Positions 27,911-35,076 of a stretch of 64,000 nt of DNA are shown one piece after another; position 1 is the stretch's first letter, and every line of letters begins with the position of its first letter. This DNA comes from Pleurocapsa minor GSE-CHR-MK 17-07R (GTDB lineage Bacteria; Chloroflexota; Anaerolineae; Aggregatilineales; Phototrophicaceae). The position numbers were made by a program, and so were the translations under genes. The DNA lies in assembly GCA_019359125.1 (NCBI GenBank), contig JAHHHY010000012.1, forward strand, positions 124,001 through 188,000, given 5' to 3'. The notes below the pieces were generated by a model. It made no database searches and was not told the origin of the DNA. It worked only from the letters and a program-made list of their open reading frames with translations.

Positions 27911-28021
27911 CAGCGGTAGCCCCAGACTGAGTCCTTTTATCGATCATTAAACGTTGGCAGCGAGACGCCGAAATTTCGTCATTCCTTAAACGTTTTCTAA
28001 CGCTGTGTTTGCACCAGAAAC

Positions 28022-28049
28022 TTGACAATCATCGAAAGGGCGTGATACT
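28022..28049 (+). promoter_or_regulatory. Promoter of the sulfur amino acid operon
   Basis: A consensus TTGACA (28022-28027) is followed after 16 bp by GATACT (28044-28049). Transcription would start near 28056, only about 3 nt before the ATG of the leader peptide, giving an almost leaderless mRNA. Confidence 0.65.
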
Positions 28050-28058
28050 CTTTCTCGC

Positions 28059-28190
28059 ATGCCAAACACGATCTTTGCTACTTCCCGTTCAAATGCCACC
28101 AGCGCCACGATGATGTGCGCTTGTATGATGTGTTGCATGCAGAACACGGATCACGTCCGGGACGAGTGGCGCCTGCGCGGCTGTATCTAG
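28059..28190 (+). CDS. Met/Cys-rich leader peptide, candidate attenuator
   Basis: 43-codon frame: ATG 28059, TAG 28188-28190. Codons 18-27 read MMCACMMCCM, five Met and four Cys in ten residues; a fifth Cys is codon 42. It has no room for a ribosome binding site because the predicted transcript begins about 3 nt before it. A strong intrinsic terminator starts 22 nt after its stop, and the operon beyond makes homocysteine/methionine and handles sulfur. GCGCCAC (28102-28108) can pair with GTGGCGC (28166-28172) across the Met/Cys codons. GTGGC there can instead pair with GCCAC of the terminator arm (28215-28219), extended by CGGG with CCCG. A ribosome stalled at Cys/Met codons would favour the second pairing and allow read-through. 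Small size makes the coding call an inference. Confidence 0.6.
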   Translation: MPNTIFATSRSNATSATMMCACMMCCMQNTDHVRDEWRLRGCI

Positions 28191-28211
28191 CCGCACGATT
28201 CACGCAAGCAC

Positions 28212-28239
28212 AAAGCCACCCCGACCGGGTGGCTTTTTT
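28212..28239 (+). terminator. Leader terminator (attenuator) before the JAMM gene
   Basis: AAAGCCACCC (28212-28221) pairs perfectly with GGGTGGCTTT (28227-28236) around a 5-nt loop, with six T. It lies between the leader stop and the first structural gene of the same strand. No T-box motif or SAM riboswitch core was found here. Confidence 0.85.
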
Positions 28240-28266
28240 GTTTGCTGAGTCAGGATAAAGGAACCG

Positions 28267-28701
28267 ATGAACGTCACGCTGAGTCATTCACTGCAAGAAG
28301 AAATTGTGTCGCAGATGCAGGACTGTTTCCCCAATGAAGGGGGTGGCTTCCTGCTGGGTGAAATCGACGACGACAATATCACCATTCGTGAAATCGTCCA
28401 GATCGAGAACTCGTTCGAGGCTGAAGAGCAGTATCACCGCTATGCCATGACGCCGCAGAACTGGGTGAAGATGGAAGATACTGCCGAGGAAAAAGGCCTG
28501 ACGTTGGTGGGCTATTACCACAGCCACCCGTCCAGCCCGGCCATCCCCAGCAAGTATGACCGCGATCATGCGCTGCCAAACTTCATCTACATCATCACAG
28601 CTGTATATACCGGCCCGAAGTGCCTGGAACAGCGCGTGTGGCGACTGCGCGAAGATCGCAGCCAGTTCGACGAAGAAGAACTGATCGTCGAACATGACTA
28701 A
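28267..28701 (+). CDS. JAMM/MPN+ metalloprotease (Mec/HcyD-like)
   Basis: 144 residues. The zinc protease signature is complete: E24 (NEGGGFLLG), H85 and H87 (HSHP), S95 and D98. In bacteria such proteins (Mec in Mycobacterium, HcyD in Wolinella, QbsD in Pseudomonas) trim the C-terminus of ThiS/MoaD-like sulfur carriers and release the finished amino acid from them. The carrier encoded at 32584 ends Gly-Gly-Gln and so would need exactly this trimming. AAAGGA precedes the ATG. It is the first structural gene of the operon. Confidence 0.88.
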   Translation: MNVTLSHSLQEEIVSQMQDCFPNEGGGFLLGEIDDDNITIREIVQIENSFEAEEQYHRYAMTPQNWVKMEDTAEEKGLTLVGYYHSHPSSPAIPSKYDRDHALPNFIYIITAVYTGPKCLEQRVWRLREDRSQFDEEELIVEHD

Positions 28702-28811: not shown

Positions 28812-29651
28812 ATGACTGATGCACTCGTCACCACCCAGTTCGTCGACGATAACCTGAGCAGCGGGAAATTCCGCCTCGTGGAAGTCGACGTCGACACCAC
28901 CCAGTACGACACAGGCCACGCACCGGGCGCAGTCTCGTTCAACTGGCAGACGCAGCTTCAGGATGGCGTCGCCCGCGACATCATCTCGCAGGAAGACTTC
29001 GAGACGCTGCTGAGCCAGCATGGCATCGGCAACGACACCTGGGTCGTGCTGTACGGCGACAACAACAACTGGTTTGCAGCCTACGCGCTGTGGCTGTTCC
29101 AGTATTATGGCCACGAGAATGTCAGTCTGATGGACGGCGGCCGCAAAAAATGGCTGGCCGAAAATCGTGAAACCACCACCGCAGTTCCCACCTTCCCCGC
29201 CACCACCTACAAAGTCACCAAAATCAATGCAGACTACCGCGCCGACCGCGATTACGTGCGCGCGCGCCTGGAAAAGAGCGAGTTTGCGCTGGTGGACGTG
29301 CGCAGCCCCGCCGAATACGTGGGCGACATCATCGCGCCGCCGGGCATGAGCGAAACCGCCCAGCGCCCCGGCCACATCCCCGGTGCCCGCAATATCCCGT
29401 GGGCGCAGGCCGTCACCGAAGACGGCTCGTTCAAGAGCAAGGCAGAGCTGGAAGCGCTGTACGGCAGCAAGGGCGTCAGCAAGGACGCCAAAGATGTGGT
29501 CGCCTACTGCCGCATCGGTGAGCGCAGCAGCCACACCTGGTTCGTGCTCAAGTACATTCTCGGCTATGAAAATGTCCGCAATTACGACGGCTCGTGGACG
29601 GAATGGGGCAACCTGATCGGCGCCCCCATCCGCAAGGGCGACCAACCGTAA
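28812..29651 (+). CDS. Two-domain sulfurtransferase (thiosulfate/mercaptopyruvate type)
   Basis: 279 residues. ATG 28812 chosen because GGGAGAGG lies just upstream and the protein then begins at the rhodanese fold; the longer frame lacks family similarity. The N-terminal rhodanese domain is inactive (no Cys). The C-terminal domain has the catalytic C233 in [12 protein letters not shown], the loop typical of CysA/SseA thiosulfate sulfurtransferases. It would carry sulfur as a persulfide, probably for the carrier-protein pathway of this operon. The 110-bp gap to the JAMM gene holds two GC-rich hairpins without U-tracts. Confidence 0.9.
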
Positions 29652-29751: not shown

Positions 29752-31074
29752 ATGAGCACAAACGGAACAGGCAAGCACGAACAGGGATTTCTGACCAAGG
29801 CGCTGCACGCCGGCTACTCGCCCGACCCGACCACGGGCGCGCGCGCTGTGCCGATTTACCAGACGACATCGTATCAGTTCCGCGACACCGACCACGCCGC
29901 CGCGCTGTTTGCGCTGGCCGAGCCGGGCAACATCTACACCCGTATCATGAACCCGACCACGGCGGTGTTTGAAGAACGCATCGCCGCGCTGGAAGGCGGC
30001 ATCGGCGCGCTGGCCACCGCATCCGGCCAGTTTGCCGAGACGCTGGCCATCCTCACGCTGGCCAACAGCGGTGACGAAATCATCAGCTCGGCCGCGCTGT
30101 ACGGCGGCACCTACACCCTGTTTGCCTACAGCCTGAAGCGCCTGGGCATCACCACCCATTTCGTGCAGGGCACCAACCCGGCCGACTTCGAGAAGCTGAT
30201 CAACAGCAAGACGAAGGCCATTTACCTTGAAACCATCGGCAACCCGAAGCTGGAAGTCCCCGATTTTGAGGGCATCACCGCCGTCGCCAAGGCGCACGGC
30301 ATCCCCGTCATCGTCGATAACACCTTCGGCACGCCGTACCTGTTCCAGCCGTTCAAGTGGGGCGTGAACATCAGCCTGCACAGTACCACCAAGTGGATCG
30401 GCGGCCACGGCCTGAGCATCGGCGGCGTGCTGATCGACGGCGGCAACTTCGACTGGAAGGCCAGCGGCCGTCACGACGGCATCGTCAAGCCGGAACCCGC
30501 CTATCACGGCGCGGTGCTGGCGGATGTGCTGGGCGCGGCAGCGTTCATCGGGCGCGCCCGTGTGGTCGGCCTGCGCGACTTCGGCGGCAGCCAGGCACCC
30601 TTTAATTCGTTCCTGAATATCATCGGCCTGGAGACACTGGCCCTGCGCGTGCAGCGCCACGTGGACAACGCGCTGGCGGTGGCCCAGTATCTGGAGCAGC
30701 ACCCGTCTGTGTCATGGGTCAATTATCCCGGCCTGCCCAGCCACGAAAGCTACGAACGCGCGCAGAAGTATCTGCCCAAGGGCGCGGGCGCGGTCATCGG
30801 CTTTGGCATCAAGGGCGGCAAGACGGCCGGCCGCAACTTCATCGACAACCTGAAGGTGTTCTCGCACCTGGCCAATGTGGGCGATGCGCGTTCGCTGGCG
30901 ATTCACCCGGCCACGACCACGCACAGCCAACTCAGCGCCGAAGAACAGGCATCCACCGGCGTCAGCGAAGACTATATCCGCCTGGCAGTCGGCATCGAAG
31001 ACATCAACGATATCCTGGCCGATCTGGATCAGGCGCTGGCGATTTCGCAGGGCGTCACGCAGCACGCGGTGTAA
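29752..31074 (+). CDS. metY: O-acetylhomoserine sulfhydrylase (aminocarboxypropyltransferase)
   Basis: 440 residues, a Cys/Met-metabolism PLP enzyme. The PLP lysine is K214 in [11 protein letters not shown]; the N-terminal [20 protein letters not shown] and the length fit MetY rather than MetB/CysK. It converts O-acetylhomoserine plus a sulfur donor to homocysteine. In Wolinella the donor for MetY is a protein thiocarboxylate, and the ThiS-like, JAMM and E1-like genes around it suggest the same here. AGGAA precedes the ATG. The acetylated substrate is supplied by metX downstream. Confidence 0.93.
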
Positions 31075-31121: not shown

Positions 31122-31176
31122 GATGATAAGCATCGGCATGTGCGCCCCACGCACAACACAGGCACAAAGGCAGTTC

Positions 31177-32418
31177 ATGAACGCGGGTCAAAACGGCACC
31201 AAAGCATACGTCAGCGCGAACCACGGCCCAGAGCCGGTCGATGGCGCCTACGCGCGTCCGGGGCAAGGCACTGTAGGCATCGTGCAGCGCCAGGTGGCCC
31301 ATTTTGACCAGCCGCTGACGCTGCGTTCAGGCCGCGTGCTTGAGGCGTTCGACATCGCATATGAGACGTATGGTACGCTGAATGACGATGCCTCGAACGC
31401 GATCCTGATCTGCCACGCGTTGTCGGGCGACGCGCACGTGGCTGGCTATTACACGGACGATCCGGCGGAACGACCCGGTTGGTGGGACGAGGCTGTCGGG
31501 CCGGGCAAAATGTTCGACACCGACCGCTATTTCGTTATTTGCAGCAACGTGCTGGGCGGCTGCCAGGGCAGCACCGGCCCCGCCTCGCCCGCGCCTGATG
31601 GCCGCCCGTATGGCCTGCGCTTCCCGGTCGTGACCATTCACGACATGGTGGCGGCCCAGGCGCGCCTGCTCGATCACCTGGGCATTCAGCGGCTGTTCAG
31701 CGTGGCCGGTGGCAGCATGGGCGCGATGCAGGCGCTGCAATGGGCGGTTGATTTTCCGGAGCGCGTCCATTCGGTGCTGTTTATCGCCAGCACGCCGGTC
31801 TCGTCCACGCAGAATATCGCCTTCAACGAGATCGGGCGGCAGGCCATCATCGCTGACCCGCGCTGGAATGGCGGCGATTACTACGACGGGCCGTATCCGG
31901 ATGCCGGGCTGGCGGTGGCGCGCATGATCGGCCACATCACGTACATGAGCGAGCACTCGCTCAACCAGAAATTCGCGCGCGAGCTGCAAGGCCATGACGC
32001 GCTGCCCTACCGGCTGGATGTGCCGGAGTTTCGCATCGAGAGCTATCTGCGCTATCAGGGTGAAAAATTCACGCAGCGCTTTGATGCCAACAGCTATCTG
32101 TACATCACCAAGGCGCTCGATTATTTCGACATCGCCGACGGCTATGGGTCGATCGATGCCGCGCTGGCGCGGACGCAGGCGCGCTTTCTGGTGGTCAGTT
32201 TCTCCAGCGACTGGCTGTATACCGCCGAACAGGGTCTGGACCTGCTGACCGCGCTGGAACGCGTGAAGAAGCCGGTCGAGTTTCACCTGCTTAATGCCGA
32301 TTTCGGACACGACTCGTTCCTGGTGGAAGTGGAGACGATGAATGCCCTGATCGGGGGCTATCTGACGCGCACATGGGAGACCATGAGCGAGGAAGCAGCC
32401 CGCTCAGCAGAAAGATGA
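31177..32418 (+). CDS. metX: Homoserine O-acetyltransferase
   Basis: 413 residues. ATG 31177 is preferred because AAAGG lies 6 bp upstream; earlier starts at 31123 and 31138 would encode a tail next to the palindrome. Alpha/beta hydrolase fold with the nucleophile S180 in GGSMGAMQALQW; DANSYLYITKALDYFD and NADFGHDSFLV give the remaining catalytic region. It acetylates homoserine with acetyl-CoA, feeding MetY. Some MetX-like enzymes use succinyl-CoA, and sequence by eye cannot fully exclude this. Confidence 0.92.
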   Translation: MNAGQNGTKAYVSANHGPEPVDGAYARPGQGTVGIVQRQVAHFDQPLTLRSGRVLEAFDIAYETYGTLNDDASNAILICHALSGDAHVAGYYTDDPAERPGWWDEAVGPGKMFDTDRYFVICSNVLGGCQGSTGPASPAPDGRPYGLRFPVVTIHDMVAAQARLLDHLGIQRLFSVAGGSMGAMQALQWAVDFPERVHSVLFIASTPVSSTQNIAFNEIGRQAIIADPRWNGGDYYDGPYPDAGLAVARMIGHITYMSEHSLNQKFARELQGHDALPYRLDVPEFRIESYLRYQGEKFTQRFDANSYLYITKALDYFDIADGYGSIDAALARTQARFLVVSFSSDWLYTAEQGLDLLTALERVKKPVEFHLLNADFGHDSFLVEVETMNALIGGYLTRTWETMSEEAARSAER

Positions 32419-32451: not shown

Positions 32452-32522
32452 GGTGCGTGAGCCAGACGGCCAGGCAACGGTCTGCAAAACCGTGCAAACG
32501 GGTTCGACTCCCGTACGCACCT
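32452..32522 (+). tRNA. tRNA-Cys (anticodon GCA)
   Basis: 71 nt. Acceptor stem GGTGCGT / ACGCACC, anticodon stem ACGGT / ACCGT with loop CTGCAAA (anticodon GCA), T arm ACGGG-TTCGACT-CCCGT, and discriminator T, the identity base of cysteine tRNA. CCA is not encoded. It lies inside the sulfur operon, 33 bp after metX and 61 bp before the carrier gene, with no terminator on either side. A small hairpin (32429-32444) precedes it. Confidence 0.95.
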
Positions 32523-32583
32523 CTTGATTCTTTAAGTCATGCCGCCCGTCAGGGCGGCCCATTCAAGGAGCAACAGGTACACT

Positions 32584-32856
32584 ATGCCCAGCATCAAGAT
32601 TCCCACGCCGCTTCGTGTCTACGCCAGCGGCCAGGCCCAGGTCAATGTCAGCGGCGCAACCATCGGTGAAGCGCTCAACGACCTGACGACGCAGTTCCCC
32701 GATCTGCGCCCGCACCTGTTCAAAGACGACCAGCTGCGCAGTTTCGTCAATGTATTCATCGGCGACGAGGACATCCGCTTTCTGAACGGTCTGGACAGCG
32801 ACATCGCTGAGACAGACACGCTGCGTATCATCCCGTCGATTGCCGGCGGCCAGTAA
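32584..32856 (+). CDS. ThiS/MoaD-like sulfur carrier (CysO/HcyS-like)
   Basis: 90 residues with the ubiquitin-like beta-grasp fold (IPTPLRVYASG, TIGEALNDL, DLRPHLFKDD, FVNVFIGDEDIRFLNGLDS, DTLRIIPSIAGG). It ends Gly88-Gly89-Gln90. Carriers of this type must end in Gly-Gly to be adenylated and turned into a thiocarboxylate, so the final Gln should be removed first, a job fitting the JAMM protease of the same operon. The close neighbours metX, metY and the E1-like gene point to a role in sulfur amino acid synthesis rather than molybdopterin or thiamine. Confidence 0.88.
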   Translation: MPSIKIPTPLRVYASGQAQVNVSGATIGEALNDLTTQFPDLRPHLFKDDQLRSFVNVFIGDEDIRFLNGLDSDIAETDTLRIIPSIAGGQ

Positions 32857-32906
32857 GTCAACCAGTCAGCATGCCGCGGGAGTGCATCCCGGAAAGCAGC
32901 CACATC

Positions 32907-33368
32907 ATGACCGCATCTGAAGCGTCCAGGCGTGTCGATCAATCGGGCTTAAAGGTCGGCCAGGCCACCACCATCATCGCGCTCGTCATCGCCTTTGTCC
33001 TGGCCAGCCCGCTGATCGTGCTGCTGGTCGGCATCGCGCAGCTGCTGGGCGCGCTTGACTCGCCGTACGGACCGTATCGCCTGCTCTATCAAAACGTGCT
33101 CAAGCCGCGCGGCATCGTCAAGCCAAATGTGATTCCTGACAATCCGGAGCCGCATCGCTTCGCCATGCTGGTCGGCGCGATCTTCAATTTTGCCGCGACC
33201 GCGTTCCTGCTGCTGGGCGCACCGGCCGTGGGATGGGTGCTGGTGTGGGTGGTGATCGTGCTGGCCAATCTGAATTTCTGGCTGAATTTCTGCGCTGGCT
33301 GCTGGATGTATTATCAGGCGAACAAACTCGGCATCCCCGGCTTCGACCGCGCGCCGCTGGCCCGGTAA
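32907..33368 (+). CDS. DUF4395 membrane protein
   Basis: 153 residues from ATG 32907. Three to four membrane segments (about 22-48, 92-113 and 115-133). NFCAGCWMYYQ near the end holds the Cys-x-x-Cys pair typical of DUF4395. These proteins occur next to thioredoxin, rhodanese and sulfur genes. A role in moving sulfur or reducing equivalents across the membrane is likely but unproven. The thioredoxin-like gene follows after 14 bp. Confidence 0.8.
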   Translation: MTASEASRRVDQSGLKVGQATTIIALVIAFVLASPLIVLLVGIAQLLGALDSPYGPYRLLYQNVLKPRGIVKPNVIPDNPEPHRFAMLVGAIFNFAATAFLLLGAPAVGWVLVWVVIVLANLNFWLNFCAGCWMYYQANKLGIPGFDRAPLAR

Positions 33369-33382
33369 AGGATCATTTGACC

Positions 33383-33817
33383 ATGCTTGAACGCCTGATT
33401 CTGGCTGTGCTGCTGCTGGCTGTCGGATTTATCGCTTACCGACTGGCCATCGCGGCGCAGAAACGACGCACAACCGGGCTGATCGATCAGACGGCGGAAG
33501 CCGCCGCGCTGCCTGCCGCCCCGGCGACGATTATGTATTTCACCACGCCCACCTGCGTCGCCTGCCGCACCACCCAGCGGCCGGCGCTGGAGCTGGTAAA
33601 GCAGACCGTGCACGACAATGTACGAGTCGTCACGATTGATGCGTCTGAACAACCAGAGGTTGCTGGCAAGTGGGGCGTGTTTTCAGCGCCCACCACCTTT
33701 GTCATCGATCATCAGGGCCGGACAGTTGCTGTAAACCACGGGGTGGCAGATGCGCAAACGCTGCTGAAGCAGCTCCGCAGCGCCAGCCCAACCTATGTAT
33801 TTGAGGGAGCCTCATGA
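33383..33817 (+). CDS. Membrane-anchored thioredoxin-like protein
   Basis: 144 residues. An N-terminal helix (about 4-22) anchors a thioredoxin domain with active site CVAC (C58, C61), the cis-Pro region SAPTTFVI and a typical C-terminal helix. It probably reduces persulfide or disulfide intermediates of the sulfur operon. Its stop overlaps the next start by 4 bp (ATGA). Confidence 0.87.
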   Translation: MLERLILAVLLLAVGFIAYRLAIAAQKRRTTGLIDQTAEAAALPAAPATIMYFTTPTCVACRTTQRPALELVKQTVHDNVRVVTIDASEQPEVAGKWGVFSAPTTFVIDHQGRTVAVNHGVADAQTLLKQLRSASPTYVFEGAS

Positions 33818-35076
33818 CCAATCCTGTCGTCACAAAACTGGGTGACCTGACCAACGCGGAAATCAACCGCTATGGCCGCCACCTGATCATGCCCGAATTC
33901 GGCCTCGACGGCCAGCGCCGCCTGAAAGCTGCCAGCGTGCTGCTGATCGGCACGGGCGGGCTGGGCAGCCCGCTGGCGCTCTATCTGGCCGCCGCTGGTG
34001 TTGGCCGCATCGGCCTGGTCGATTACGACATCGTGGAAGAAACCAACCTGCAACGCCAGGTCATCCACGGCATCAGCAGCGTGGGCAAAAGCAAGATCGA
34101 AAGCGCCGCCAAACGCATTCTGGATATCAATCCGAATGTGACAATCGACAAGTATGAAGTGCCGTTCACCAGCGACAATGCGCTGGAAATCGCCGCGCCC
34201 TATGACGTGATTATCGACGGCACGGATAATTTCCCGACGCGCTATCTGGTCAACGATGTGTGCGTGAAGCTGGGCAAGCCGAACGTGTATGGCAGCGTGC
34301 TGCGCTTTGAAGGCCAGCTCAGCGTGTTTTACGCGCAGGAAGGCCCGTGCTACCGCTGCATGTTCCCCGAGCCTCCCCCGCCCGGCCTGGTGCCGAGCTG
34401 CGCCGAGGGCGGCGTGCTGGGCGTGCTGCCAGGCATCATCGGCACGATGCAGGCCACCGAGGCCGTCAAGCTGATTACCGGCGTGGGCGACCCGATGATT
34501 GGGCGTATGCTGCTGTTCGATGCGCTGGAGATGAGCTTCACCACCATCAAGGTGCGCAAGAACCCGAAGTGCCCGGTGTGCTCAATCCCGCGTGAAGAAG
34601 TCGAGCTGATCGATTACGAGCAGTTCTGCGGCGTGCCGGCGCACGACCATGTGCCGACGCCCATCAGCGTGACCGAAAACGGCGTCGTGGTGAACAAGAA
34701 CGTCCCGATTCCGCAGATTACCTCGGTCGAGCTGAAGGCGCGCATCGATGCGGGCGAAGACCTGTTCCTGGTGGACGTGCGCAACCCCGAAGAATGGGAA
34801 ATCGCGCAGATCGACCACAATCTGGAGATTCCCAAGCCGCGCATCATGACCGCCGCCGAGCAGGTGAAGCTGGGCCAGCAGGCGCTGGTGGACAGCGTGC
34901 TGAACTCGATCCCGCGTGACCGCGAGGTCATCATCTACTGCCGGTCGGGCGCACGCAGCACCGATGTCATCACCGCGCTGCGCGACCTGGGCTTCGACCC
35001 GAACAAGCTGGTCAACCTGGAAGGCGGCATTCTGGGCTGGGCGCGCAACGTCGACCATACGATGCCTGTGTACTAG
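33814..35076 (+). CDS. ThiF/MoeB adenylyltransferase fused to rhodanese (MoeZ/HcyF-like)
   Basis: 420 residues. The E1-like domain (about 15-265) has the ATP loop LLIGTGGLGSP, the conserved ETNLQRQV arginine region, and two zinc Cys pairs (C179/C182 and C253/C256). A C-terminal rhodanese domain carries C376 in YCRSGARS. MoeZ-type proteins adenylate the Gly-Gly end of a sulfur carrier and then transfer persulfide sulfur to make the thiocarboxylate. As the last gene of the operon it completes the set protease, carrier, activating enzyme, sulfur donor and MetY. Confidence 0.93.
   Translation: MTNPVVTKLGDLTNAEINRYGRHLIMPEFGLDGQRRLKAASVLLIGTGGLGSPLALYLAAAGVGRIGLVDYDIVEETNLQRQVIHGISSVGKSKIESAAKRILDINPNVTIDKYEVPFTSDNALEIAAPYDVIIDGTDNFPTRYLVNDVCVKLGKPNVYGSVLRFEGQLSVFYAQEGPCYRCMFPEPPPPGLVPSCAEGGVLGVLPGIIGTMQATEAVKLITGVGDPMIGRMLLFDALEMSFTTIKVRKNPKCPVCSIPREEVELIDYEQFCGVPAHDHVPTPISVTENGVVVNKNVPIPQITSVELKARIDAGEDLFLVDVRNPEEWEIAQIDHNLEIPKPRIMTAAEQVKLGQQALVDSVLNSIPRDREVIIYCRSGARSTDVITALRDLGFDPNKLVNLEGGILGWARNVDHTMPVY

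Follow-up and report, generated by a model that had tools for sequence, protein, structure and literature searches.

A predicted cysteine-codon transcription attenuator upstream of a thiocarboxylate-type sulfur operon in Anaerolineae

Introduction

The closest described counterparts of the leader analysed here are the polycysteine leaders of mycobacteria, which the cited passages present as leaderless short ORFs with contiguous Cys codons that respond to cysteine (Canestrari et al. 2020, via PMC9031893 and PMC13236596). A predicted Cys-codon leader followed by an intrinsic terminator, the uORFC-8-2 motif, is described before cysS in Rhodobacterales in the cited section of PMC8632094, and according to the excerpt of PMC7298713 used here the trpL transcript of Sinorhizobium meliloti, which is controlled by transcription attenuation, begins with the ATG of the leader. 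A -10-like TANNNT element placed some 12 bp ahead of the start codon is given as a mark of leaderless bacterial genes, and is reported for 4 of 12 Chloroflexi genomes in the part of that study cited here (PMC3160421). Thiocarboxylate pathways, in the cited portion of PMC6225789, lead to cysteine in M. tuberculosis and to methionine in Wolinella succinogenes.

Methods

Relatives of the locus were collected through its JAMM protein, which was searched in 101 genomes; 89 matched, some by distant matches only, and 70 loci were read (30 and 40 from two sets). The best 80 of 243 JAMM matches in a second collection were added, mostly from Chloroflexi, Anaerolineae and Anaerolineaceae, with Aggregatilineales and Phototrophicales among them. 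The resulting 150 loci comprise 106 distinct upstream regions, counted as distinct in their last 60 nt, and expectations come from dinucleotide shuffles of these regions.

The leader region and its operon

The DNA analysed (the window) is a stretch of 64,000 nt from Pleurocapsa minor GSE-CHR-MK 17-07R (assembly GCA_019359125.1, contig JAHHHY010000012.1, positions 124,001 to 188,000), an organism placed by GTDB in the Anaerolineae of Chloroflexota. An earlier note on this DNA had proposed a TTGACA element, a 43-codon ORF with the run MMCACMMCCM, a terminator and a set of pairing segments (GCGCCAC, GTGGCGC, CGGG, GCCAC and CCCG), all of which direct reading of the sequence recovers where Table 1 lists them; the distance from the leader stop codon to the terminator is 21 nt. 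The leader peptide reads MPNTIFATSRSNATSATMMCACMMCCMQNTDHVRDEWRLRGCI. In a pattern search of the organism's own genome, the -10 hexamer TACTCT stands at a spacer of 18 from the -35 element and 7 nt upstream of the leader ATG. GATACT, two bases further upstream, was an earlier candidate for the -10, and was replaced by TACTCT after comparison with relatives.

Table 1. Features of the leader region and of the operon behind it, in window coordinates.
Feature	Position	Strand	Basis or remark
-35 element TTGACA	28022-28027	+	read in sequence
Extended -10 TGaTACTCT	28043-28051	+	hexamer TACTCT 28046-28051, TG 28043-28044
Leader ORF, 43 codons + TAG, predicted leaderless	28059-28190	+	ATG 28059-28061, TAG 28188-28190
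Candidate segment 1 (protector)	28077-28108	+	28077-28087 (centroid fold) or GCGCCAC 28102-28108 (complementarity by sequence) against segment 2
Candidate control codons 18-27, MMCACMMCCM	28110-28139	+	position and density common to relatives
Proposed segment 2 (antiterminator 5' part), CGGG acga GTGGCGC	28158-28172	+	fold ahead of ribosome, comparative peak; CGGG 28158-28161, GTGGCGC 28166-28172; terminator-side partners GCCAC 28215-28219, CCCG 28220-28223
Intrinsic terminator (segments 3 + 4) with first part of T tail	28212-28239	+	terminator scan; stem arms 28212-28221 and 28227-28236, T tail after
JAMM (Prok-JAB), first gene after leader	28267-28701	+	PF14464, E 7.5e-21
Two-domain rhodanese, 3-mercaptopyruvate sulfurtransferase-like	28812-29651	+	PF00581; NF008557 110.6 bits, below cut-off 250; probable ATG 28812, frame open from 28713
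MetY, O-acetylhomoserine sulfhydrylase family	29752-31074	+	TIGR01326 648 bits, cut-off 495
MetX, homoserine O-acetyltransferase	31123-32418	+	NF001209 525 bits, cut-off 331; start maybe further downstream
tRNA-Cys (GCA) inside operon	32452-32523	+	RF00005 48 bits, ARAGORN
ThiS/SAMP1-like sulfur carrier	32539-32856	+	PF02597 34.5 bits; SAMP1 model 53.5 bits, below cut-off 60; start maybe further downstream
DUF4395 protein	32871-33368	+	PF14340 105.3 bits; start maybe further downstream
Thioredoxin-like protein	33383-33817	+	PF00085 38.5 bits; probable ATG 33383
MoeB/ThiF-type adenylyltransferase + rhodanese domain	33814-35076	+	PF00899 278.2 bits, PF00581 52.8 bits

Single-window scans at this locus found one promoter against 0.9 expected from shuffles and one terminator against 1.0. 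As neither exceeds shuffles at a single locus, the case rests on comparison with relatives. The upstream neighbour, citrate synthase, is transcribed divergently, so that the terminator does not end that gene. No Rfam family, SAM riboswitches and T-boxes included, exceeds its gathering score in the leader, and at E up to 5 the top match within 27950-28320 is Phe_leader, with 25.5 bits against a threshold of 55.

Thiocarboxylate pathways employ a JAMM protein, a ThiS-like carrier and a MoeB-type activator, with MetY and MetX in the methionine version. The operon shares all of these, as judged by homology, and adds rhodanese, tRNA-Cys, DUF4395 and thioredoxin-like genes to the set. CysE scores above its cut-off in just 5 of 21 genomes (this one and 20 relatives), the present genome not being among the five; cysteine may be made via homocysteine.

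The genome carries two tRNA-Cys genes, the operon copy being the second, divergent one, located directly before the carrier gene. Among leader-bearing operons in which the carrier gene and the gene preceding it are in view, a tRNA gene stands directly before the carrier in 12 of 73 others (11 tRNA-Cys and one tRNA-Tyr), or 13 of 74 with this locus included. Two loci, L174 (in which the leader is cut off) and L175, have two operon tRNA copies each. When a model of the operon tRNAs was run on 65 of the 80 second-collection loci, the only convincing new match was one further altered copy, with a changed anticodon loop, in L170. The tRNA at this place in L197 (6829-6901) has a tRNA-Tyr (GTA) reading and seems to be a tRNA-Cys whose anticodon has changed.

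Conservation of the terminator and the leader codons

A terminator-like hairpin lies within 190 nt of JAMM in 84 of the 106 distinct upstream regions, compared with 30 of 318 shuffled ones. The 22 regions without one are nine records (L240-L248; eight from Acidobacteria or Pyrinomonadaceae, one titled Enterobacter), one locus at a contig edge (L008), six loci of families f2, f6 and f8 (L062, L063, L065, L066, L067 and L069), and L042, L050, L057, L060, L068 and L070, whose families (f1, f4 and f7) carry the leader elsewhere.

Clustering of amino acids was compared with shuffles in 330-nt regions from 63 of the first 70 loci, leaving out L008 as too short and the six f2, f6 and f8 loci, in which JAMM lies inside the operon and Cys gives p values of 0.11 to 1.0. 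No amino acid other than Cys and Met (mean z 1.54 and 1.44) is clearly clustered above shuffles, the next being Arg at 0.24. Cys alone reaches p 0.05 against shuffled 330-nt regions in just 31 of the 63, for which reason position and Met were later added to the leader test. Measured from the terminator in the 84 regions that have one, the median position is -72 for the last clustered Cys and -34 for the stop codon. In 80 of 84 regions, against 4.0 per 84 shuffled, a short ORF has its stop 10-60 nt upstream of the terminator and its final Cys codon 50-95 nt upstream of it, these ranges having been chosen after the observed positions were seen. With a stricter score in the correct place (C + 0.5 M reaching 4 or more over 12 codons), 69 of 84 are found against 0.4 per 84 shuffled. 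Shuffling still leaves two or more Cys within 12 codons in 72.1 of 84 cases; it is position and density that carry the signal. The weak cases L023, L029 and L034 belong to one genus.

Substitutions were counted in 28 close pairs of leaders, which are not independent of each other. Over the cluster and the codons before it, substitutions at the three codon positions number 58, 32 and 65, fewest at position 2, while the codons after the cluster show no such bias (69, 72 and 66). Of 122 Cys codon cells in these pairs, 93 are identical, 10 are switched between TGT and TGC, and 19 are replaced.

Sensing of cysteine, as predicted from this comparison, is well supported. Cys occurs in the clusters regardless of what the operon contains, and does not differ between operons with and without MetY. 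The earlier note had also considered sensing of methionine, for which the case is weaker. Clusters before MetY operons average 3.71 Met per 12 codons and none is without Met (n = 34), whereas those before operons lacking MetY average 1.35, with 18 lacking Met (n = 48; two operons are unclassed), and the 12-codon score (C + 0.5 M) gives Met the same advantage in both groups. This raw difference is lost after phylogenetic correction (slope 0.57, SE 0.43 at the best lambda of 1.0, not significant); sensing of methionine is plausible, but the comparison is suggestive only.

Beyond these relatives, a phylum sample of 150 other genomes gave 12 in which JAMM was matched with an E of 1e-20 or lower, and a Cys leader was found in none of the 12; two of these loci have weak terminator-like matches. 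In 11 of the 12 (L338-L349) the frame upstream of JAMM resembles, by eye, what is presumably the end of a cysteine synthase gene. Origin of the leader once JAMM became the first gene would fit what is seen in these 12 Chloroflexota relatives. A strict scan of loci with ATP-sulfurylase and CysE (L252-L301) found no Cys leader with a promoter, a scan that misses many leaders, as it recovers just 39 of the first 70 JAMM loci.

Promoter and predicted leaderless start

The motif TGnTAnnnT stands exactly 7 nt before an ATG in 57 cases in the 84 regions, against 1.0 per shuffled set. In 70 of 84, the Cys ORF has an in-frame ATG or GTG with such an extended -10 placed 4-9 nt upstream. In an alignment of 76 relatives numbered from the leader start codon, the -35 is visible at -36 to -34 as T in 71, T in 62 and G in 59 rows, and the -1 base is a pyrimidine (C or T) in 74; as rows were chosen for TAnnnT 4-12 nt before the start, the -10 columns of this alignment are biased, and it is the count of 57 against 1.0 that is unbiased. 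Given the spacing of the extended -10 and the published signature of leaderless genes, the predicted transcription start is the A of the leader ATG (28059), in which case the leader ORF would itself be leaderless. The earlier note had named a start downstream of 28240 as a refutation; the promoter conserved among relatives lies upstream of the leader.

Alternative pairing

Complementarity to the 5' arm of the terminator was followed along the leader in 70 representatives of the 84 regions, near-duplicates (ratio over 0.85) and short regions being excluded. It peaks at -60 to -36 (z -0.87, SE 0.14; for the wider window -65 to -30, z -1.13, SE 0.16), that is, between the Cys/Met cluster and the stop codon. 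Windows farther upstream show no arm complementarity, and those nearest the terminator are slightly below shuffles. A weaker signal, possibly that of a protector, comes from -140 to -106 (z -0.53 and -0.48, SE 0.15, in two overlapping windows). Related regions share clustered leader codons and an arm-complementary segment in the expected place, and the comparison does not refute the attenuator put forward in the earlier note.

Folding gives a mixed picture. With a ribosome at the last clustered Cys and the RNA ahead of it folded alone, which presumes that the RNA behind the ribosome stays unpaired, the mean probability of arm pairing over 71 of the 84 loci is 0.628; it is 0.520 for naked RNA, 0.507 when the spacer is shuffled and 0.317 when the ribosome has reached the stop codon. 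The stalled state exceeds the shuffled spacer in 56 of 71 loci (p 1.2e-7) and the stop state in 63 of 71; the shuffled spacer is the fair control, because the difference between stall and stop is in part that of more RNA ahead. At the locus itself, a ribosome placed on the last clustered Cys leaves downstream RNA in which GTGGC folds onto GCCAC, as had been proposed, and arm pairing is 0.63 when stalled, 0.41 with a shuffled spacer and 0.14 at the stop; naked RNA already pairs the arm at 0.70, which counts against the attenuator. Two further comparisons were weak or negative. Folding from the ATG with a masked ribosome in 63 of the 84 loci gave no separation between the stalled and the stop state (33 of 63), and arm pairing was best with the ribosome close to the start. 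This set and the ahead-of-ribosome set exclude, besides near-duplicates and short regions, loci with cluster or stop beyond set limits. When arms were swapped between species, pairing fell slightly, with 407 of 5000 permutations equally good; the arms are alike.

A second leader in the genome

A scan of the organism's own genome for the leader promoter gave three sites at a spacer of 17 and five at a spacer of 18. Two of these eight promoter sites are followed by a Cys/Met leader: that of the sulfur operon and a second, MNASVCRHAMSMCCCCMQTAADLRLGRAE, at L249 1500-1700 (G000:C3:18867 onward), after which comes a terminator with a score of 35. The gene behind it encodes a tandem solute-binding protein (SBP_bac_3, 99.6 bits), the nearest solved relatives of which are amino-acid-binding proteins. 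Among 30 loci of SBP_bac_3 relatives, a Cys-rich short ORF with a terminator is present in this second site, and perhaps L309, only, and the closest orthologues of the gene (L304-L307) have no leader with a terminator. On the minus strand of L334, at about 1538, another promoter match in the organism's own genome opens an 11-codon ORF, MCSCPDSGQSL, with two Cys. The second leader, the predicted leaderless start and the operon tRNA-Cys gene are all absent from the earlier note.

Proposed mechanism and alternative explanations

We consider it very probable that the region upstream of the sulfur operon is a ribosome-mediated transcription attenuator that works like a classical one. Promoter geometry, cluster, terminator, arm-complementary segment and their spacing are shown by comparison; that these parts act, where transcription starts, that ribosomes stall, which way the response goes and which amino acid is sensed are inferred. 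RNA polymerase would start at the leader AUG, and a ribosome would initiate at the 5' end without a Shine-Dalgarno site. With Cys-tRNA (perhaps also Met-tRNA) plentiful, the ribosome would pass the cluster, reach the stop codon and mask segment 2, the terminator (28212-28236) would form, and the operon would go untranscribed. With Cys-tRNA scarce, the ribosome would stall in the cluster, upstream of segment 2, which would be free to pair with the terminator 5' arm and so allow read-through into the JAMM, MST-like, MetY and MetX genes and on to the tRNA-Cys, carrier and MoeB genes. GCGCCAC (28102-28108), the first arm of the earlier note, would be covered if stalling occurred at the first Cys codons, though not at the last ones, and no stalled ribosome would ever cover 28077-28087; the protector is therefore the least certain part.

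A wider proposal, which we put forward tentatively and regard as rather doubtful, is that a leaderless attenuator reading two amino acids controls a sulfur regulon together with the supply of its own sensor, Met codons going with MetY and MetX, and a second copy of the switch acting on amino-acid uptake. As the tRNA-Cys gene lies inside the attenuated operon, sulfur synthesis and tRNA-Cys would, under this proposal, both be switched on by a shortage of charged tRNA-Cys.

That the Cys and Met residues of the leader peptide sense metal or redox state, translation being stopped thereby and not by a shortage of charged tRNA, appears very unlikely. Copper-responsive upstream ORFs are a precedent for a metal-sensing leader peptide, Cys/Met clusters are well suited to soft metals, and CC, CMC and MMCC recur, but the spacing of Cys is not fixed between lineages (CCC, CTCTC, CMCMCM, CLCCC), the operon encodes enzymes of sulfur amino acids, and the second site precedes an amino-acid-binding family 3 protein. 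Control of JAMM translation or of Rho-dependent ending, with the hairpin a mere structural element, would agree with the cited accounts of mycobacterial polycysteine leaders as acting on translation (PMC9031893, PMC13236596) and with the passage that reports no obvious terminator in Actinobacterial Cys leaders (PMC1262725). We find this highly improbable in view of the stem and T run kept in 84 of 106 regions, the arm-complementary segment kept at one place, and the Shine-Dalgarno-like GGATAAAGGA that precedes JAMM, which lies outside the terminator stem. The lack of any excess in single-window scans would suit a chance or TG-rich cluster next to an unrelated terminator, yet the comparative counts exceed dinucleotide shuffles and leave this a negligible prospect.

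Transcription attenuation by stalling at Cys codons, if true, would mean a leaderless Cys-codon system in Chloroflexota, a counterpart of the mycobacterial leaders that keeps its terminator, and would tie a thiocarboxylate-type sulfur operon of Anaerolineae to the supply of Cys-tRNA. The 84 natural variants are available for studying how control codons, spacing and leaderless initiation are tuned, and a tRNA-Cys gene within the controlled operon is an unusual arrangement that is directly testable.

Comparison with known systems

Among the papers listed in searches of open-licence literature, none gave a case of leaderless Cys-codon transcription attenuation in Chloroflexota. The mycobacterial polycysteine ORFs, in the passages cited, are alike in being leaderless short Cys-codon ORFs before the genes that they control. 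They are described as attenuating translation, whereas the present leaders repeatedly show a terminator with an arm-complementary segment, contain Met as well, and come from another phylum; the terminator that is conserved here is likewise not obvious in Actinobacterial Cys leaders, as far as the cited passage goes (PMC1262725). The uORFC-8-2 motif, in the cited section, has tandem Cys codons in a conserved two-stem RNA before the cysteinyl-tRNA synthetase gene (PMC8632094), compared with which the present leaders have denser and variable clusters, a leaderless-type promoter and a biosynthetic operon behind them. The trpL leader of S. meliloti, as the excerpt drawn on presents it, reads Trp codons and belongs to Alphaproteobacteria, and shares with this leader the start of the transcript at the ATG, which is predicted here. 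Single components are thus known from mycobacteria, Rhodobacterales and Sinorhizobium, and it is their combination, as predicted for this leader, that is new within the literature searched.
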